Source: an uncultured Alphaproteobacteria bacterium (lineage in GTDB: Bacteria > Pseudomonadota > Alphaproteobacteria > Methylaequorales > Methylaequoraceae). Taken from it: a stretch of 57,825 nt of DNA. The stretch's first letter is position 1. Each line of letters begins with the position of its first letter. The stretch spans positions 1 through 57,825 of the forward strand of contig CACJRF010000011.1 of the NCBI GenBank assembly GCA_902595755.1, in the 5' to 3' direction. The notes below the pieces were generated by a model. It was not told where the DNA came from. It searched no databases and saw nothing but the letters and a program-made list of their open reading frames with translations. Positions 9,400-29,545 of the stretch are shown here, in pieces. The translations under genes and the position numbers were made by a program.

Positions 9400-10019
9400 C
9401 TATTTTCTTAATATTAATTTTATTAACAATTATTACTATTTCATATTATCTTATGCCAAGCACAAAGAGTAGGTTGATCTTATTCATTTCTCTTATTGTT
9501 GTTACTTCTATTGGCTATATGCTTAAAGGTAATTTTGAAAGTTTCACGTTTAATGAGGAAAATAATAAAATCATTGAGGATATTATTGTCTCAAAAGAAA
9601 AAATTGATGAACTTGATCCAGATAGGTTAATACTTTACTTAGAGAATAAATTGAATAAAAATCCAAAAGATCTTCAAGGATGGTTAATTCTTACAAGAAC
9701 CTGCAGCCTCTCTGGTTATCTCCAAAAAGCAGATCTTTATTTCAAAAAGGGTCTTGAATTGTTTCCATATGATGAAAGTTTACTCCTCGAATATTCTTTA
9801 CTAAAAAAAAATACAAACCAATTTAAGAGTGCTTTAGAAATTCTTTCAAAGCTTAAAGTTATCTCACCAACAAATATTTTTGCAAGAGAGTTAATCATAG
9901 ACATCTTAATTACAATCAATAACAAACAACGTGCTCAAAAAGAATGGAATGAAATGATGAAAAGTAAAAATTTTGATAATAACAAGTTGATTGAAATTAG
10001 GGATAAATTTAAACTATGA
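9396..10019 (+). CDS. ccmI: c-type cytochrome biogenesis protein CcmI, TPR-containing
   Basis: I place the start at the ATG at 9396, which overlaps the ccmH stop (ATGA); a longer in-frame extension to 9336 would run through ccmH. The 207 residues show two hydrophobic helices (about 1-21 and 27-44) followed by helical TPR-like repeats, including LQGWLILTRTCSLSGYLQKADLYFKKGLELFP. CcmI presents the C-terminus of apocytochrome c to CcmF/H. It is the last gene of the ccm operon and its final six bases overlap the convergent pabC. Confidence 0.85.
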   Translation: MTIFLILILLTIITISYYLMPSTKSRLILFISLIVVTSIGYMLKGNFESFTFNEENNKIIEDIIVSKEKIDELDPDRLILYLENKLNKNPKDLQGWLILTRTCSLSGYLQKADLYFKKGLELFPYDESLLLEYSLLKKNTNQFKSALEILSKLKVISPTNIFARELIIDILITINNKQRAQKEWNEMMKSKNFDNNKLIEIRDKFKL

Positions 10020-10901
10020 CAACTCAAGATTATCATTTTTTTTTTTGCTAGATATAGAGAAATATTCGACTAAACTTTTAAGTTCATCAGTAATTACAAA
10101 ACTTACATTTTCCAAATGTTTCACTGGTATAACTCTAATTATTGAGTTTGTAAGAAACATTGCATCAAAATTATTAATTTCAGAGAGTTTTAAATTACAT
10201 TCCATAAAATCGTTAAAGAAAAGATTTGTTTTCTCCTTTATTACCTGACTCATTATCCCTTCAATACCGCATGATTCTAGTTTAGGAAAATACAAAACCT
10301 TATTTTTTATAAAAAAAATATTAGTCATTGTTCCTTCTAATAAATTTCCTGACTTATCAACAAATAAACCTTCAAAATAATTATTATCCCATTCAGAACG
10401 GGCGATTACTGAATCAAGTCTATTTAAATGCTTTATACCAGATATTCTTTTGTTCTCTAAAATATCAGTTTTACATAATTTAACTTTAACTCCAGTATTA
10501 TAAAGTTTTTGATCAATAGTTTTTGCTGGGAAAGATAAAAAAATAATTGTTGGCTTTAAATTTGATTCATATTTATAACCTCTACCACCGACGCCACGAG
10601 TAATTATAATTTTTAAAACACCGCGTTTTATACTACTTTCTAATGATTTCTTTAAAATTTTATTTTTGTAACTGTTTAATAGATCTTTCGACGGCATCGG
10701 AAGTTTAATTTTATTACATCCAATTTTAAGCCTTTCTAAATGCCTATCCCAATATTCAACTCCATAAATTTGCACTTTATTTGATTTAGATGCCTGCCAA
10801 TTCATGGTCTCAAAAATCCCATCTCCATAAGCAAGCCCCCTATCAAGTACAGAAATATTTTTTTTAAAAATTCCATTTATTAGCGAAAAAAAGTCATTCA
10901 T
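10014..10901 (-). CDS. pabC: aminodeoxychorismate lyase, PLP class IV
   Basis: This is a 295-residue class IV PLP enzyme. Family marks are the N-terminal VLDRGLAYGDGIFETM, the Schiff-base lysine in SGIKHLNRLDSV and the glycine loop in GNLLEGTMTNIFF. The ATG at 10901 lies inside the end of pabB with an 8-base overlap, so I prefer it to the longer frame from 10934. The fold is shared with branched-chain and D-amino acid aminotransferases, but coupling to pabB points to 4-amino-4-deoxychorismate lyase, which makes p-aminobenzoate for folate. Its tail overlaps convergent ccmI by six bases. Confidence 0.88.
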   Translation of the reverse strand: MNDFFSLINGIFKKNISVLDRGLAYGDGIFETMNWQASKSNKVQIYGVEYWDRHLERLKIGCNKIKLPMPSKDLLNSYKNKILKKSLESSIKRGVLKIIITRGVGGRGYKYESNLKPTIIFLSFPAKTIDQKLYNTGVKVKLCKTDILENKRISGIKHLNRLDSVIARSEWDNNYFEGLFVDKSGNLLEGTMTNIFFIKNKVLYFPKLESCGIEGIMSQVIKEKTNLFFNDFMECNLKLSEINNFDAMFLTNSIIRVIPVKHLENVSFVITDELKSLVEYFSISSKKKNDNLELS

Positions 10902-23792: not shown

Positions 23793-24311
23793 TCATTTTT
23801 TAAATGTTATTGAAACCACACCCAAAACTATTCCCCACTTTTTAACTTCAGCCCTGTTCATTAAGATATTATCGTCTTGCAAGAACATCCAATCGTCAAA
23901 ATCTACAACAACTGTAGATTCTTTTACTTTTAAATTAAGCTTGTATTTCCAATTTAAAGCATTTCCTGAGGAAACTCCTGTGGCCTCGCCTATTACATCA
24001 TCGGCTGTACCTGAATATTTATTATTACCTAAAATCTTAATACTCCAAATTCTAGATTCTTTTTCTCCGTCATTATAAACGAATTTTTCATCAAGGGTCA
24101 GAGTATCATTATCTAAAGTTCCCGTTATATCAACTTTAAACGACCTTTTTAAATTCCCAAATCTATCATGAAACATCCCCCATGCTTTTGTCTTGCCATC
24201 AAAATAATCTTCTAGCACAAACCTAGGTTTTTCATTTTGAAAATTCTTTACGTTCATATCACTTGCGCAAGATAATAGGGTTAAGGTAAATAGTAAAAAC
24301 CATAATCTCAT
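23793..24311 (-). CDS. DUF3833 lipoprotein
   Basis: This 172-residue protein has a lipoprotein signal peptide with lipobox LLSCA (Cys at about 15). The DUF3833 body is recognised from FVLEDYFDGKTKAWGMFHDR, VYNDGEKESRIWSIKI and DDWMFLQDDNILMNRAEVKKWG. It is a periplasmic lipid-anchored protein of unknown activity that recurs next to CFA and DUF1365 genes. It is the last gene of the minus-strand arm, 21 bases after the transporter gene. Confidence 0.85.
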   Translation of the reverse strand: MRLWFLLFTLTLLSCASDMNVKNFQNEKPRFVLEDYFDGKTKAWGMFHDRFGNLKRSFKVDITGTLDNDTLTLDEKFVYNDGEKESRIWSIKILGNNKYSGTADDVIGEATGVSSGNALNWKYKLNLKVKESTVVVDFDDWMFLQDDNILMNRAEVKKWGIVLGVVSITFKK

Positions 24312-24332
24312 TTATTCAATATATTATTTTTT

Positions 24333-25610
24333 TTAATCATTAACAGTAATAATTTTTTGTACTTTTTTTAATTCACTTTCTCCAAAAGTAAAATTCTTAA
24401 GCAGAAAAGCCGCAATTATTTTTAGTATAACAGGAATTATTGCATAGCTAATAATTATAAAAATTTTACTTTCCTTGGAAACTATCTCGTTGGCGTCAAA
24501 ATTCAATAATCCTAATACACCAAATATAAAAATACTTGCTAATGCAAATGAAAGTTTGCTTAAGAATGTCAATATGGAGAACATTACCCCAGACATATCT
24601 TCATTAAATTTCATTCTGTGATGGTCTATTAAGTCTGCTTGAATAGACATTGGAAGAAGAAGGTCTGCTCCAAGGCATAATCCTGTTAAACATGAAATAA
24701 TAATAAATAAATTTAAATCTCCTTTGTCTAAAAAAACCACAAAAAAGAAAATCAATGAAGAGATTATTAATGATATTCTCCATGCTAAAACTTTATTTGT
24801 TTTCTTAGAGAGGAATGTCCAAAAAGGAACGCCTAAAACAGCAAATAAGAAGTAGTAAAATAACGTTATTTGTCTATCATAATCATTACCTCCAAGGATG
24901 TAAGAGACATAAAAAACAAAAAGCACCATTGGAAAAACATTTGCTAGTGTATTTAGAAACCATACAAAAATAAGTCTGCTTATCTTATTATTTTTATAGA
25001 TACTTTTAAAATTAATTCCTGAAAAATTACTCTGTTTGTTAGATTTCTCATCTTTAATACATATCGTAAATAATAATAACCCCAAAAACCCAGATATTAT
25101 TGCTAGATCTACTAATTTACTGACAAGTTTTACATTGTCTACATTTAAGATTATTGGAAGAAGAAGCGATGAAAATAACCCTAAAAGAACAAAGAATTCT
25201 CGTGATGCACTAAGTCTGGTTCTTTTATGATAATTTCTCTCTAAATTATAGCCAATTGACAGATAAGGTATTTGAAATATTGTCCATCCTGTATACAAAA
25301 CTACAATCCATATAAGTAAATGACCGTTTCCAGGAATTTCATCTACCTTAAAAAGTTTGTAAAGAGCAATCCCGGAAAGTAGTCCTCCAATTATCAACCA
25401 TACTTTCCTTGAAAAAAAATTTTTATCATTTATCCAACCCATTAACGGGTCAGTAGTTATATCTATTAATTTTGCCGCAAAAAGTATAATTCCAATTGTA
25501 GCTATGTCCATCCCGTATACTTCTGAGTATAAAGCAGGTAGAAAAACCATAACCGGAAATGTTGGTATTGCGAATGCATACGCTGGTAAGGAATAAAACA
25601 AATATTTCAT
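24333..25610 (-). CDS. MFS/GPH-type transporter (MelB-like)
   Basis: This 425-residue protein has twelve apparent helices and the GPH-family motif DITTDPLMGWINDK in loop 2-3, with GSSLLLP-like stretches after. Genes of this type in CFA/DUF1365 clusters are annotated as sugar:cation symporters, but a lipid or precursor substrate is as likely. It lies 14 bases downstream of the methyltransferase gene on the same strand. Confidence 0.85.
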   Translation of the reverse strand: MKYLFYSLPAYAFAIPTFPVMVFLPALYSEVYGMDIATIGIILFAAKLIDITTDPLMGWINDKNFFSRKVWLIIGGLLSGIALYKLFKVDEIPGNGHLLIWIVVLYTGWTIFQIPYLSIGYNLERNYHKRTRLSASREFFVLLGLFSSLLLPIILNVDNVKLVSKLVDLAIISGFLGLLLFTICIKDEKSNKQSNFSGINFKSIYKNNKISRLIFVWFLNTLANVFPMVLFVFYVSYILGGNDYDRQITLFYYFLFAVLGVPFWTFLSKKTNKVLAWRISLIISSLIFFFVVFLDKGDLNLFIIISCLTGLCLGADLLLPMSIQADLIDHHRMKFNEDMSGVMFSILTFLSKLSFALASIFIFGVLGLLNFDANEIVSKESKIFIIISYAIIPVILKIIAAFLLKNFTFGESELKKVQKIITVND

Positions 25611-25624
25611 TTTATAAAGTATAT

Positions 25625-26815
25625 TTAATTCTTTTTTATTAGAAATTGTCCAACATCTATATTTTGTGACCTAAAACCACCCTCACAATAACTTAAATAA
25701 TAATTCCACATTCTTAAGAATGTATCATTGAAACCTTGGGACTTAATCTCATTCAATGAATCTTGAAATGAAGATCTCCACCTTTTAATCGTTTCGGCAT
25801 AATCAAGACCAAACATATTTTTTTTATCTATACAAAGTCCTTCGTTTTTCATAATTTCATTAATTGCTGGAATTGATGGTAGCATTCCACCTGGGAATAT
25901 ATAGGTCTGTATAAAGTCAGGAAACTTTTTATATGTTTGAAAAAATTTTTCATCAATTGTAATTGTTTGAAGACCAATACAACCGTTTGGTTTTAGATTC
26001 TCATAGAGTTTTTTGAAAAATATACTCCAATACTTAACTCCAACGGCCTCAAACATTTCTATGGAGACAATCTTATCAAACTTCCCATTCAAATCTCTGT
26101 AGTCAATTAGCTTTACGTCAACCTTTTCTTTTAAATGATTCCTCTCGATTTTACTTTTGACTGCAAGATACTGGTTCCTAGAAATTGTTATCGCCGTCAC
26201 ATTTGCTTTATAATTGGTCGCTAAAAACTCTGAGAATCCGCCCCAACCACAACCAACTTCAAGTACTTTATCACCAGGCTTAATATTAACAAGTTCAGCA
26301 AGACTCTTATACTTATTAATCTGTGCTGATTGAAGTGACTGCGTTTTTGTTTTAAAAATTGCCGACGAGTATGTCATAGTTTCATCTAACCAGGATTTAT
26401 AAAACTCGTTTCCTAGGTCATAATGATATTGAATATTCTTTTTAGACCCTTTTTTAGAGTTACCATTTATAAAATGTTTAAGTCTTAGATACAAAATTAT
26501 ATACCATCTCCCCCTTATAAAGCTTGAGAATTGATGGAAGTTTTTCGCACCCCATTCAAGAAAGCTAGTTAAGTTAGTTGTTTCCCAATTTTTATCAATA
26601 TAACTCTCTGCCCAACCTAAATCTCCTCTGTTAAAAAAATCGTCTAAGCATTTTTTATTTATTATATTTATTTCAGCTTTTGGACCATTTTCAGGGGCTT
26701 GATATTCAAGAATCTTTTTATTCTGATAAAGAACAGATATTTTACCGAATCTACTTTGTCTTAAAACAGATAAAAATAGGTCGATTTTTCTCTTATATTC
26801 TCTATTTTCTTTCAT
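25625..26815 (-). CDS. CFA-type SAM-dependent fatty acyl methyltransferase
   Basis: This 396-residue enzyme has the lipid-methylase layout: an N-terminal lipid-binding domain, then NIQYHYDLGNEFYKSWLDET with TYSSAIF, the SAM motif VLEVGCGWGGFSEFL (about residue 180) and ETIKRWRSSF near the end. It methylates double bonds of phospholipid acyl chains, giving either cyclopropane rings or methylated unsaturated chains on the furan fatty acid route. Sequence alone does not separate CFA synthase from UfaM-like enzymes. The flanking DUF1365 and FAD oxidase genes favour the broader lipid-modification cluster. It starts with a 14-base overlap with DUF1365. Confidence 0.9.
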   Translation of the reverse strand: MKENREYKRKIDLFLSVLRQSRFGKISVLYQNKKILEYQAPENGPKAEINIINKKCLDDFFNRGDLGWAESYIDKNWETTNLTSFLEWGAKNFHQFSSFIRGRWYIILYLRLKHFINGNSKKGSKKNIQYHYDLGNEFYKSWLDETMTYSSAIFKTKTQSLQSAQINKYKSLAELVNIKPGDKVLEVGCGWGGFSEFLATNYKANVTAITISRNQYLAVKSKIERNHLKEKVDVKLIDYRDLNGKFDKIVSIEMFEAVGVKYWSIFFKKLYENLKPNGCIGLQTITIDEKFFQTYKKFPDFIQTYIFPGGMLPSIPAINEIMKNEGLCIDKKNMFGLDYAETIKRWRSSFQDSLNEIKSQGFNDTFLRMWNYYLSYCEGGFRSQNIDVGQFLIKKN

Positions 26816-27569
26816 TAATTATAGTAAATTTCGTTTTTGATATTTTTGGTCTGTTGATATATTTAGCTCCTTTGAAAAATAGTTTCAAGGCTTGAATATA
26901 TATTCCCAAGGTAACTTTAATATTTTGAATGGAATTTGTAAAAAATGTCCTTAAAAGGTTCATTTCATTCATATCTATTGATTTTCCCTGATAAGAGGCC
27001 TCAAAAACCTTTTTTTTATCTACAATATATTTTATATACAAGTAAATATTTTTTTCGTCTATTTTAAAAGAAATATCATACAAACCTTTTACTTTAAAAA
27101 AAGGAGAAACATAAAAACCTTTATCAAAAATAAAATTAGTTTGGTCTTTTTTTATCTTTGAGAAATATAAATGTCTTTCTTTAAAAGTATTATTCACCTC
27201 AAGGATAACTCCAGATGGAATTTCTCTTTTATTATAAAGAATAAAGACTGAAATGGGGTTAAAACTATAGTTTAAAATTCTTGGAAGACAAAAAACTTTT
27301 ATTTTGAGAAAGTCTCCTTTAATTCTTCTTAATTTTTTCTGAAAAAAATCTTCTACAACACCTTTTTTCTCAATTTGCCCATGATCATTATCAAAGAAAG
27401 AAAATATACTGATTCTGTTTCTTTTAAATAGAAAATATTCCCTGAAATCATTTAATCTAAACCAGAAATAAGATATTTTGTAGCTGAAGCTATGGTGAAA
27501 TGGGGCAAATCTAGTGTGTTTAACTACGCCACTATATATTTTATTATTTACATAACTAATTTTATTCAT
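26802..27569 (-). CDS. DUF1365 protein
   Basis: This 255-residue protein starts with the family hallmark SGVVKHTRFAPFHHSFSY and continues with FNPISVFILYN and LEVNNTFKERHLYF. DUF1365 proteins nearly always lie between an FAD-dependent amine-oxidase-like gene and a CFA-type methyltransferase, as here, and are linked to lipid modification under singlet-oxygen stress. No catalytic mechanism is established to my knowledge. The ATG at 27569 abuts the stop of the FAD gene. Confidence 0.9.
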   Translation of the reverse strand: MNKISYVNNKIYSGVVKHTRFAPFHHSFSYKISYFWFRLNDFREYFLFKRNRISIFSFFDNDHGQIEKKGVVEDFFQKKLRRIKGDFLKIKVFCLPRILNYSFNPISVFILYNKREIPSGVILEVNNTFKERHLYFSKIKKDQTNFIFDKGFYVSPFFKVKGLYDISFKIDEKNIYLYIKYIVDKKKVFEASYQGKSIDMNEMNLLRTFFTNSIQNIKVTLGIYIQALKLFFKGAKYINRPKISKTKFTIINERK

Positions 27570-28817
27570 TTATTTTTTTTTAAGAATTTGATTCACAATA
27601 TCTAAACCAGATTTAATCCCATCCTCATGAAAACCATACCCAAGGTAAGCGCCGCAATACCAGATGTTATTTTTTCCTTGAATTAGTTTTATTTTTTTCT
27701 GAGTTTTAAATGTTTTAAGATTATATATGGGGTGATCGTAAATTATTCTTTTTATTATTGTCTCTTTTGACGGCTTCATAGAAGGATTTAATGTTACAAA
27801 TATATTTTTTTTTGAATCAATATTTTGAAGTTTATTCATCCAGTAAGTTACCGATAATTTATTATTATTCTCGCCTTCTAGATAATTCCAACTAGCCCAA
27901 ACTTTTTTTAATTTAGGCATCAAATTTTCGTCAGTATGCAAAAACACTTCATTTGTTGTATACTTTATATCTTCAAAAATTTTTATATTATTTAAATTTG
28001 GAATTTTATTTACATGTTTGACTTGATCTGAGTGAACGGCAACAATTACATGATCGTATTCTTTTTCTTTTCTATTAACTTTTAATATTAATTTATCGTT
28101 TTTAAATTTTTTAATTTCTATGTCAATATTCTTTGAAGCAATAATATTTTCTTTCTCTATGATTTTTCTTACATAACTTTGACTGCCATTTAAAACAGTT
28201 CTCCACTTAGGCCTATTTGTTAAATTTAAAAGACCATGATTAGAAAAAAAATTAACGAATTGTTCAAAAGGGTATTTTTTTATTTCATTTAATGATGATG
28301 ACCAAATACTCGATGCCATTGGATAAATATGTTTATATTTAAAAAAGTCTGAATAATTCTTAATGGTTAGATAATCTTCTATAGTACAATTATTATAATT
28401 CATTTTATCATACTCAACATTTTTGTAGAATTTCATTATCTCAATTAACATTCTTAAGTATTTTAGATTGAAAACATTTTTTTTCTGGGCAAACATACTT
28501 CCTAAGGATGAACCAGAATATTCTAATCCTCCATTTTCCAGAGAGGCAGAAAATGACATATCACTCTCATAAGTCTCAACATTGAGTTCATTAAATAGAT
28601 TACAAAGATTTGGATAATTCAGGTGATTAAAAACTATAAAACCAGTATCAACATAATAAGCTTTCTCTTTTAGAGGCTCAACTTTTAATGTATTTGCATG
28701 CCCACCATAATAATTATTCTTTTCAAATAAATGGATATCATGATATTTTGAAAGTTCCCATGATGCTGACAGACCTGAAATACCACTCCCAATAACTGCT
28801 ATTTTTAATTTTCTCAC
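27570..28817 (-). CDS. FAD-dependent amine oxidase-like protein of the CFA cluster
   Basis: This 415-residue flavoprotein begins KIAVIGSGISGLSASWELSK, with the acidic strand end HLFEKNNYYGGHANTL and a C-terminal FAD contact WYCGAYLGYGFHEDGIKSG. It belongs to the phytoene-desaturase/amine-oxidase fold rather than true amine oxidases. Homologues in this operon type are good candidates for acyl-chain desaturation or oxidation. It is the first gene of the FAD-DUF1365-CFA-MFS-DUF3833 operon. Its promoter region contains the inverted repeat at 28861-28903. Confidence 0.88.
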   Translation of the reverse strand: MRKLKIAVIGSGISGLSASWELSKYHDIHLFEKNNYYGGHANTLKVEPLKEKAYYVDTGFIVFNHLNYPNLCNLFNELNVETYESDMSFSASLENGGLEYSGSSLGSMFAQKKNVFNLKYLRMLIEIMKFYKNVEYDKMNYNNCTIEDYLTIKNYSDFFKYKHIYPMASSIWSSSLNEIKKYPFEQFVNFFSNHGLLNLTNRPKWRTVLNGSQSYVRKIIEKENIIASKNIDIEIKKFKNDKLILKVNRKEKEYDHVIVAVHSDQVKHVNKIPNLNNIKIFEDIKYTTNEVFLHTDENLMPKLKKVWASWNYLEGENNNKLSVTYWMNKLQNIDSKKNIFVTLNPSMKPSKETIIKRIIYDHPIYNLKTFKTQKKIKLIQGKNNIWYCGAYLGYGFHEDGIKSGLDIVNQILKKK

Positions 28818-28860
28818 AAAATAATTTTAAGAATTTTTTAAAAGTAATAAATAGAAAAAA

Positions 28861-28903
28861 TCAATATATAGTTTGACATTAATAAATAGTTACTATATAT
28901 TGA
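28861..28903. repeat. perfect 11-bp inverted repeat spanning a divergent promoter region
   Basis: TCAATATATAG (28861-28871) and CTATATATTGA (28893-28903) are exact reverse complements separated by 21 bases, with centres 32 bp apart, about three helical turns. The right arm covers the plus-strand -10 box. The left arm supplies the same TATATT on the minus strand, positioned to serve the FAD oxidase operon start at 28817. Candidate operator or paired -10 elements. Confidence 0.7.
28873..28901 (+). promoter_or_regulatory. strong sigma70-type promoter
   Basis: TTGACA (28873-28878), a 17-base spacer and TATATT (28896-28901) form the best consensus promoter I find in the window. Predicted transcription would start at about 28907-28909, at or next to the GTG of the small ORF, giving a leaderless message or a small RNA. 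Confidence 0.7.
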
Positions 28904-28908
28904 TATTT

Positions 28909-28992
28909 GTGGCTAGTATTTCAATAACAAAACTTTGTGCAATAACATTCTCATCAACATTTTTGTTATTACTAGTTTCAAGTCTATTTTAA
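28909..28992 (+). CDS. putative 27-residue hydrophobic small protein or sRNA region
   Basis: The frame GTG-TAA encodes a short basic-neutral head MASISITKLCAITF and a Leu-rich hydrophobic stretch to the C-terminus LLLLVSSLF. It would fit a single-pass membrane micropeptide or a bare signal-like leader. There is no room for a ribosome site if transcription begins at the predicted point. The transcript would end at the hairpin at 29001-29030 after about 125 bases, so a non-coding RNA is an equal alternative. CCTCC at 28996-29000 could pair with Shine-Dalgarno sequences. Confidence 0.4.
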   Translation: MASISITKLCAITFSSTFLLLLVSSLF

Positions 28993-29000
28993 TTTCCTCC

Positions 29001-29034
29001 AATAAAACCCTAGTTTACTAGGGTTTTATTGTTT
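29001..29034 (+). terminator. strong hairpin terminator
   Basis: AATAAAACCCTAG (29001-29013) pairs perfectly with CTAGGGTTTTATT (29018-29030) across a TTTA loop, and GTTT follows. This is the strongest intrinsic terminator visible in the window. The A-rich left arm makes it potentially bidirectional. Confidence 0.85.
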
Positions 29035-29233
29035 CCTAAAGATCGAGATCCAATTCACTGATAAGTATTTATTATCAATACTGGTGAAATTATTAGTGTC
29101 TAGCTCTGAAGTGTTATAGTTTTCAAGGTCAGTATTAAATGAATGTTGTCTTGATTTATCAAGCCTATCATAGCGTAAGTTATTTATTAAACCTAACATG
29201 TAAGTTTAAACGACTACTTAAGGAATTGTTTAG
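29035..29233. other. non-coding remainder of the longest intergenic region
   Basis: Together with the small transcription unit before it, this completes the 416-base gap 28818-29233. I see no convincing gene. Short inverted repeats occur (GATAA/TTATC in 29059-29075 and CTTGA/TCAAG near 29150). TTAAGGAA at 29218-29225 pairs with TTCCTTAA at 29238-29245 around the stop codon of the next gene. These could be weak RNA structures or chance in AT-rich sequence. Confidence 0.5.
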
Positions 29234-29545
29234 TCATTTCCTTAAATTATTCCTTCTAAATTCACAAACAACAGTGAAATATGGATCACCATCCCTAGGG
29301 TTTGTCGTGATAATTTGTTTTCTTAAATCACAGTATTCAGCTACAAATGAATTTAAAAGATGACCAGAATTCTGGTAATAGGAATGAATCGCCAGAAAAA
29401 AGTTATCTGAGTTTCTACATTTTTTAATCTGCTTGTTTATCTCCCCATCCGATACGTCCTTATTATAAACCGCCTTACACCAACTACCGGCTTTTAGCTC
29501 ACTAATTGAAACTAAAAGCATAAAAAAAACTGTTAAAATTCTCAT
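29234..29545 (-). CDS. small secreted four-cysteine protein
   Basis: This 103-residue protein has a signal peptide (about 1-19, cleavage after LKA) and a mature part with four cysteines (23, 43, 72, 94) that could form two disulfides. Residues are mainly charged and aromatic with no motif I recognise. It starts four bases inside the end of the PAP2 gene (ATGA), so it probably belongs to the minus-strand envelope operon ArnT-like/PAP2. Function unknown. Confidence 0.65.
   Translation of the reverse strand: MRILTVFFMLLVSISELKAGSWCKAVYNKDVSDGEINKQIKKCRNSDNFFLAIHSYYQNSGHLLNSFVAEYCDLRKQIITTNPRDGDPYFTVVCEFRRNNLRK

Follow-up and report, generated by a model that had tools for sequence, protein, structure and literature searches.

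An NrdR-type operator over a conserved, predicted micropeptide gene with a probable second role as a regulatory RNA in the HIMB59 family

Main

A compact unit of bacteria in the HIMB59 family is best explained as a gene repressed by NrdR, whose micropeptide mRNA probably doubles as a regulatory RNA. On the basis of comparative sequence analysis, we give this reading a probability of roughly 0.6. The unit lies in a stretch of 57,825 nucleotides (hereafter the window), which is contig C11 of an AT-rich genome of 1.3 Mb (the host genome, G000). A first-pass annotation of the window had proposed a micropeptide, an sRNA or both; this guess was right in outline, and 'both' is now favoured, as selection at the codon level and constraint at the RNA level are both present. 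The features of the unit are collected in Table 1.

Table 1. Coordinates of the predicted features of the unit and of the convergent ORF (positions in the window)
Feature	Position	Strand	Remarks
NrdR box 1, core CAATATATAG (28862-28871)	28859-28874	.	10/10 to CWATATATWG; kept in all relatives with the promoter
-35 element TTGACA	28873-28878	+	TTGAC kept in 27/27 with the 17-bp spacer
NrdR box 2, core CTATATATTG (28893-28902)	28890-28905	.	10/10; overlaps the -10 element
-10 element TATATT	28896-28901	+	TATGTT in three relatives
Predicted transcription start	28907-28909	+	Inferred from the distance to the -10 element
Micropeptide ORF, 27 codons, GTG 28909 to TAA 28992: MASISITKLCAITFSSTFLLLLVSSLF	28909-28992	+	Homologous to the 23-24-codon ATG ORF of relatives (MIITKFCAITFSSIFLLLLVSSLF)
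Leader stem, 5' arm	28910-28918	+	Covariation
Leader stem, 3' arm, within the ORF	28970-28978	+	Stem encloses the start region
Near-invariant element AGTCTATTTTAATTTCCTCCAATAAA	28981-29006	+	Last three codons, stop, anti-SD-like UUUCCUCC and start of the terminator arm
Terminator hairpin, 14 bp with 4-nt loop	29000-29031	.	Perfect, covarying, A/T-flanked on both sides, probably bidirectional
Convergent 57-aa ORF	29026-29199	-	Kept in 28/28 loci; stop codon inside the hairpin; no Pfam or NCBIfam match

Conservation across the HIMB59 family

The family also goes by the names AEGEAN-169 and SAR11 subclade V (PMC10308909), and the named contigs that bear the unit come from 'uncultured Alphaproteobacteria' single-cell genomes and MAGs, for example MED-G10 'HIMB59' and TMED13. 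By DNA search, the unit is present in 27 of the 31 other family genomes, which as a group are incomplete. The four genomes without it are also missing the flanking amine-oxidase gene, so that its absence there is probably an assembly gap. We aligned 28 loci or contigs carrying the unit, 27 of the sequences being full-length. The promoter, ORF and hairpin, for which conservation in related genomes had been named as a check, are kept in these 28 family contigs. The order amine oxidase, unit, 57-aa ORF, 103-aa ORF and PAP2 is identical at the 28 loci, with the exception of one that is cut by a contig end, and the unit sits at a single conserved place wherever the flanking gene occurs rather than being sporadic.

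Outside the family, a covariance model recovered no convincing copy from a 289-genome sample of the class, the best weak match scoring 36.5 bits. The unit has no Rfam match above the gathering score, and neither Pfam nor NCBIfam matched the unit, its peptide (23-27 aa) or its neighbours. An origin from phage was considered and rejected: a 20-base core occurs in eight viral contigs, but the RNA model reaches at most 18.6 bits there.

The unit had been described as filling the only long gap of the window. The interval 28818-29233 is indeed the longest internal gap (416 bases; the others are 153 and 177), but it is not empty, as nearly half of it is taken up by the conserved opposite-strand 57-aa ORF.

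A promoter embedded in two NrdR boxes

The near-consensus promoter claimed in the first-pass annotation (TTGACA, 17 bases, TATATT) was confirmed, with 11 of 12 consensus matches; across 6 kb, only one other promoter-like site ranks with it at the top. Agreement with the consensus is by itself not significant, given 38 promoter-like sites found against 36.3 expected. What is significant is its conservation, the rightward -35 and -10 elements standing at the same position and exactly 17 bp apart in 27/27 sequences.

NrdR is a repressor of DNA-building-block synthesis that is nearly universal in bacteria. Its known targets are almost all reductase operons: the regulon comprises nrdAB, nrdHIEF, nrdDG and nrdJ, with topA in some bacteria. 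The earlier annotation missed that the promoter of the unit is embedded in two predicted NrdR boxes, with centres 31 bp apart and a 15-bp spacer between the 16-bp boxes, such that the -35 element touches the edge of box 1 and the -10 element falls within box 2. Known NrdR operators likewise consist of two 16-bp palindromes separated by a 15-16-bp spacer, corresponding to three helix turns, and lie over the RNA polymerase site (PMC12051234, PMC12176259). Box pairs scoring at least 18/20 are expected 0.017 times by chance in the window, and the pair at the unit scores 20/20. In a scan of 1.16 Mb (89% of the host genome) this pair was the best at 20/20, the next pairs scoring 18 and the nrdA pair 17.

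The family genomes encode NrdR, which in the host lies between glyA and ribD (TIGR00244 at 176 bits). Upstream of nrdA, the class I reductase gene that is followed downstream by nrdB, a double box with the same 31-bp spacing, again accompanied by TTGACA, occurs 5-45 bp away in 16/16 examined family loci (L190 by eye), as in ACAACTTATTGACA...ACTATATGTTGTG. The sequence features of an NrdR regulon member (boxes, spacer, promoter overlap, an NrdR gene and the motif at RNR genes) were all found, and NrdR very likely controls the unit. In its two palindromic boxes, 15-bp spacer and promoter overlap, the unit shares the layout seen at nrdA of the family genomes. What sets it apart from the rest of the regulon is the kind of gene behind the operator, a short micropeptide/RNA gene in place of a reductase operon. 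A literature search turned up no short micropeptide/RNA gene as an NrdR target. A reading of the palindrome as an IHF site was discarded: the match to the IHF consensus WATCAANNNNTTR fails by inspection in many copies, and it is instead the 31-bp double box that recurs at nrdA.

NrdR operators are symmetric, and the boxes lie 42 bp from the start of the amine-oxidase gene. The double box might regulate the divergent amine-oxidase/DUF1365/CFA operon, with the rightward unit being incidental. We judge this extremely improbable: a scan of the aligned relatives revealed no comparably conserved leftward -35/-10 toward this lipid operon, against 27/27 rightward, and on the rightward side the ORF, the stem and the terminator show conservation of their own. 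A leftward promoter for the operon was rejected for its lack of conservation. A link of the unit to the neighbouring lipid operon is not supported by these results, and the operator is of the NrdR type, as it is at nrdA.

A hydrophobic ORF under codon-level selection

The hydrophobic 27-codon ORF reported earlier is present, and its proposed leaderless start at +1 proves not to be a family feature. Most relatives start at an internal ATG, 9-12 bases further in, giving 23-24 codons. That ATG is missing from the window and from its genus sibling L002, and only these two have GTG 28909 as a possible 27-codon start. A start codon is found near the same place in 26/27 full-length sequences, and so not in all homologues; L011 has no usable or obvious start codon, yet keeps the RNA element described below.

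The frame is open in 27/27 full-length sequences, with no frame break. On the tree of the unit, we counted 49 synonymous against 39 non-synonymous substitutions, with 29.4 synonymous expected (z = 4.6), and changes at codon positions 1/2/3 number 28/11/49. Other reading frames of the unit display no comparable synonymous excess. A minus-strand ORF over the unit was rejected, as it has stops in a distant clade and the reverse frames carry no coding signal. The encoded peptide is hydrophobic, with a 19-aa hydropathy mean of 2.1-2.6 and a single basic residue. Collectively, the ORF has the appearance of a genuine peptide gene under purifying selection, and the peptide is likely to be translated.

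The coding signal weighs on the proposal that the unit is a non-coding regulatory RNA only, with the ORF as a by-product. Such an RNA would fit a nearly invariant single-stranded anti-SD element beside a structured 5' domain, the lack of a start in L011 and the lack of an ATG in the window. The unbroken frame, the synonymous excess and the recurrence of a start codon near the same place in all but one of the full-length sequences nevertheless make it very improbable.

RNA structure and a near-invariant element

The transcript is predicted to be about 125 nt long. RNA 28907-29036 folds well beyond shuffled sequences (z = -6.3), and six sequences gave fold z-scores between -3.2 and -8.7. The leader stem is paired in 97.9% of alignment cells, with 15 cells changed on both sides, whereas slid controls are 22-66% paired; mapped on a tree built from flanking genes, most changes in the stem preserve pairing. 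An inner helix of the predicted fold, for which the alignment contains no covariation, was rejected as unsupported. The 13-bp perfect hairpin of the first-pass annotation was confirmed and is slightly longer than described (Table 1). It is the sole perfect hairpin of at least 13 bp in the window, where 0.07 would be expected.

The CCTCC motif noticed just before the terminator is present and belongs to a nearly invariant 26-nt element. This stretch, AGUCUAUUUUAAUUUCCUCCAAUAAA, with its anti-Shine-Dalgarno motif (alignment columns 79-104), has one inferred change in 26 columns, compared with 53 changes in 15 leader columns. Within it, UUUCCUCC falls in an unpaired stretch 5' of the terminator. 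A comparison of codon-level with RNA-level changes, suggested earlier as a way to tell the possibilities apart, returned both a synonymous excess and covarying stems. We are confident that an RNA element of some kind is functional here.

The same observations can be read as those of a plain NrdR-regulated micropeptide mRNA, with the hydrophobic peptide as sole product and the invariant 3' stretch serving its own translation, stability or termination. Codon-level selection is seen, the invariant element spans the last codons, the stop and a terminator arm, and neither Hfq nor a conserved target was detected (see below). There is also precedent in Escherichia coli MntS, a functional protein whose RNA had originally been classified as the sRNA RybA (PMC4361602). 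Against this, a single change in 26 columns that include synonymous and untranslated sites is tighter than a terminator or a peptide needs, and L011 keeps the RNA element though its start codon is lost. We regard a purely coding role as unlikely, and a dual function remains our preferred reading.

RNA targets and known systems

No 20-nt complementary target, allowing up to three mismatches, recurs. When start regions were ranked by duplex energy, mainly strong ribosome-binding sites came out. The leader of a formaldehyde-activating enzyme gave the best conserved pairing, which is explained by its strong SD, and it was set aside as a target. The nrdA leader ranked 30 of 1,157 in the host (top 3%) and 139 of 397 in G010; it was rejected as a target, since the high rank in the host is not repeated in the genus of G010. 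Hfq was not detected in 32/32 family genomes, while control genomes were positive. With no recurrent target and no detected Hfq, it is therefore sequence conservation, and not any target, that speaks for an RNA role. Pairing of the element with mRNA leaders is possible, although we would put it at somewhat below even odds.

In its proposed working, the unit would have its closest analogues in MntR-controlled mntS/RybA and LexA-controlled TisB. The E. coli mntS/RybA gene gives a short structured transcript, formerly regarded as an sRNA, that encodes a small protein; it is repressed by MntR and induced when a metabolite is scarce (PMC4361602). The unit resembles it in combining a short structured RNA and a small protein with a metabolite-sensing repressor and, as predicted, induction at scarcity. 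The two differ in sequence and repressor, MntS has 42 aa, and the invariant anti-SD element is particular to the unit. Anti-SD sRNAs of Alphaproteobacteria, namely NfeR1/alpha-r14 and AbcR, have a similarly conserved unpaired CCUCC-type motif, which in NfeR1 is ultraconserved and able to block ribosome-binding sites (PMC10746234). NfeR1 differs in that its hairpins and its motifs each number three, and the description of it does not mention coding (PMC10746234), whereas the unit has no Rfam match and its targets are putative.

TisB, a type I toxin of 29 aa that is induced in the SOS response, shares with the unit a tiny hydrophobic peptide, a repressor of DNA metabolism and a structured mRNA (PMC8145889, PMC11449926). 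By this analogy, the unit might encode a type I toxin-like small membrane peptide, with an mRNA that its own 5' structure keeps silent and that is produced in response to DNA-precursor stress, much as TisB is made under DNA damage. Size and hydrophobicity (24 aa), a leader stem that covers the start codon and the predicted control by a DNA-metabolism repressor would agree with this. The repressor, however, is LexA in the one case and NrdR in the other, inspection of the alignment disclosed no antisense antitoxin gene, a leftward scan disclosed no conserved antisense promoter, and the unit occupies a single conserved position wherever the flanking gene is present. A toxin is accordingly an improbable identity for the peptide.

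Proposed mechanism

The dual-function gene that we favour would be monocistronic, with a sigma-70-type promoter overlapped by a double NrdR operator. From known NrdR biology, high dATP would place NrdR tetramers on both boxes and block RNA polymerase; as dATP falls, the RNA would be made along with nrdAB, and the transcript would end at the probably bidirectional terminator. Less certain are the steps that follow. The peptide may insert in the inner membrane, the leader stem enclosing the start codon may limit its translation, and UUUCCUCC may base-pair with ribosome-binding sites of other mRNAs during dNTP shortage.

More speculatively, low dNTP might yield a membrane peptide together with an Hfq-free, invariant anti-SD element that lowers the translation of many mRNAs, so that in these streamlined ocean bacteria translation or growth would follow the availability of dNTPs; we consider this wider role doubtful. 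If the proposed dual function is correct, the NrdR regulon would extend to a tiny dual-function gene, and an operator better than that of nrdA itself would mean that the dNTP sensor also drives something besides the reductase. The unit would offer a direct handle on the response of slow-growing, streamlined marine bacteria to dNTP shortage. It is also a clear case in which codon-level and RNA-level selection overlap within some 85 bases, and its lineage has no detectable Hfq.

Neighbouring genes and other NrdR-type sites

To the left of the unit, the operon at 23793-28817 (-) encodes an amine oxidase, DUF1365, a cyclopropane synthase-like protein, MFS_2 and DUF3833. Operons of this kind occur in photo-oxidative stress regulons, and nothing was found that connects this one to the unit. 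To the right, the 103-aa ORF at 29234-29545 (-) is without a family match, is kept in 28 loci and has a signal-peptide-like start.

Two genomes contain a second, larger ribonucleotide reductase, of 854 aa with an ATP-cone in G004:C5 and of 786 aa in G006:C8. The common NrdA is about 620 aa, and the copy in the host genome has no ATP-cone match. Another NrdR-like pair, at G000:C7:69712-69752 (L199) and G020:C24:7335-7375 (L200), is flanked on one side by a DNA polymerase III epsilon-like gene and on the other by a secretion gene of the ShlB/POTRA type.

A third NrdR-like double box, conserved in several genera, stands between two divergent unknown genes adjoining umuDC (L089:9328-9726(-) and 9779-10156(+); G000:C5, site 78229-78274). 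This site, a candidate for a second non-reductase member of the NrdR regulon, is also present in G001:C33, G002:C4 (L205), G004:C17 (L206) and G017:C7 (L090).
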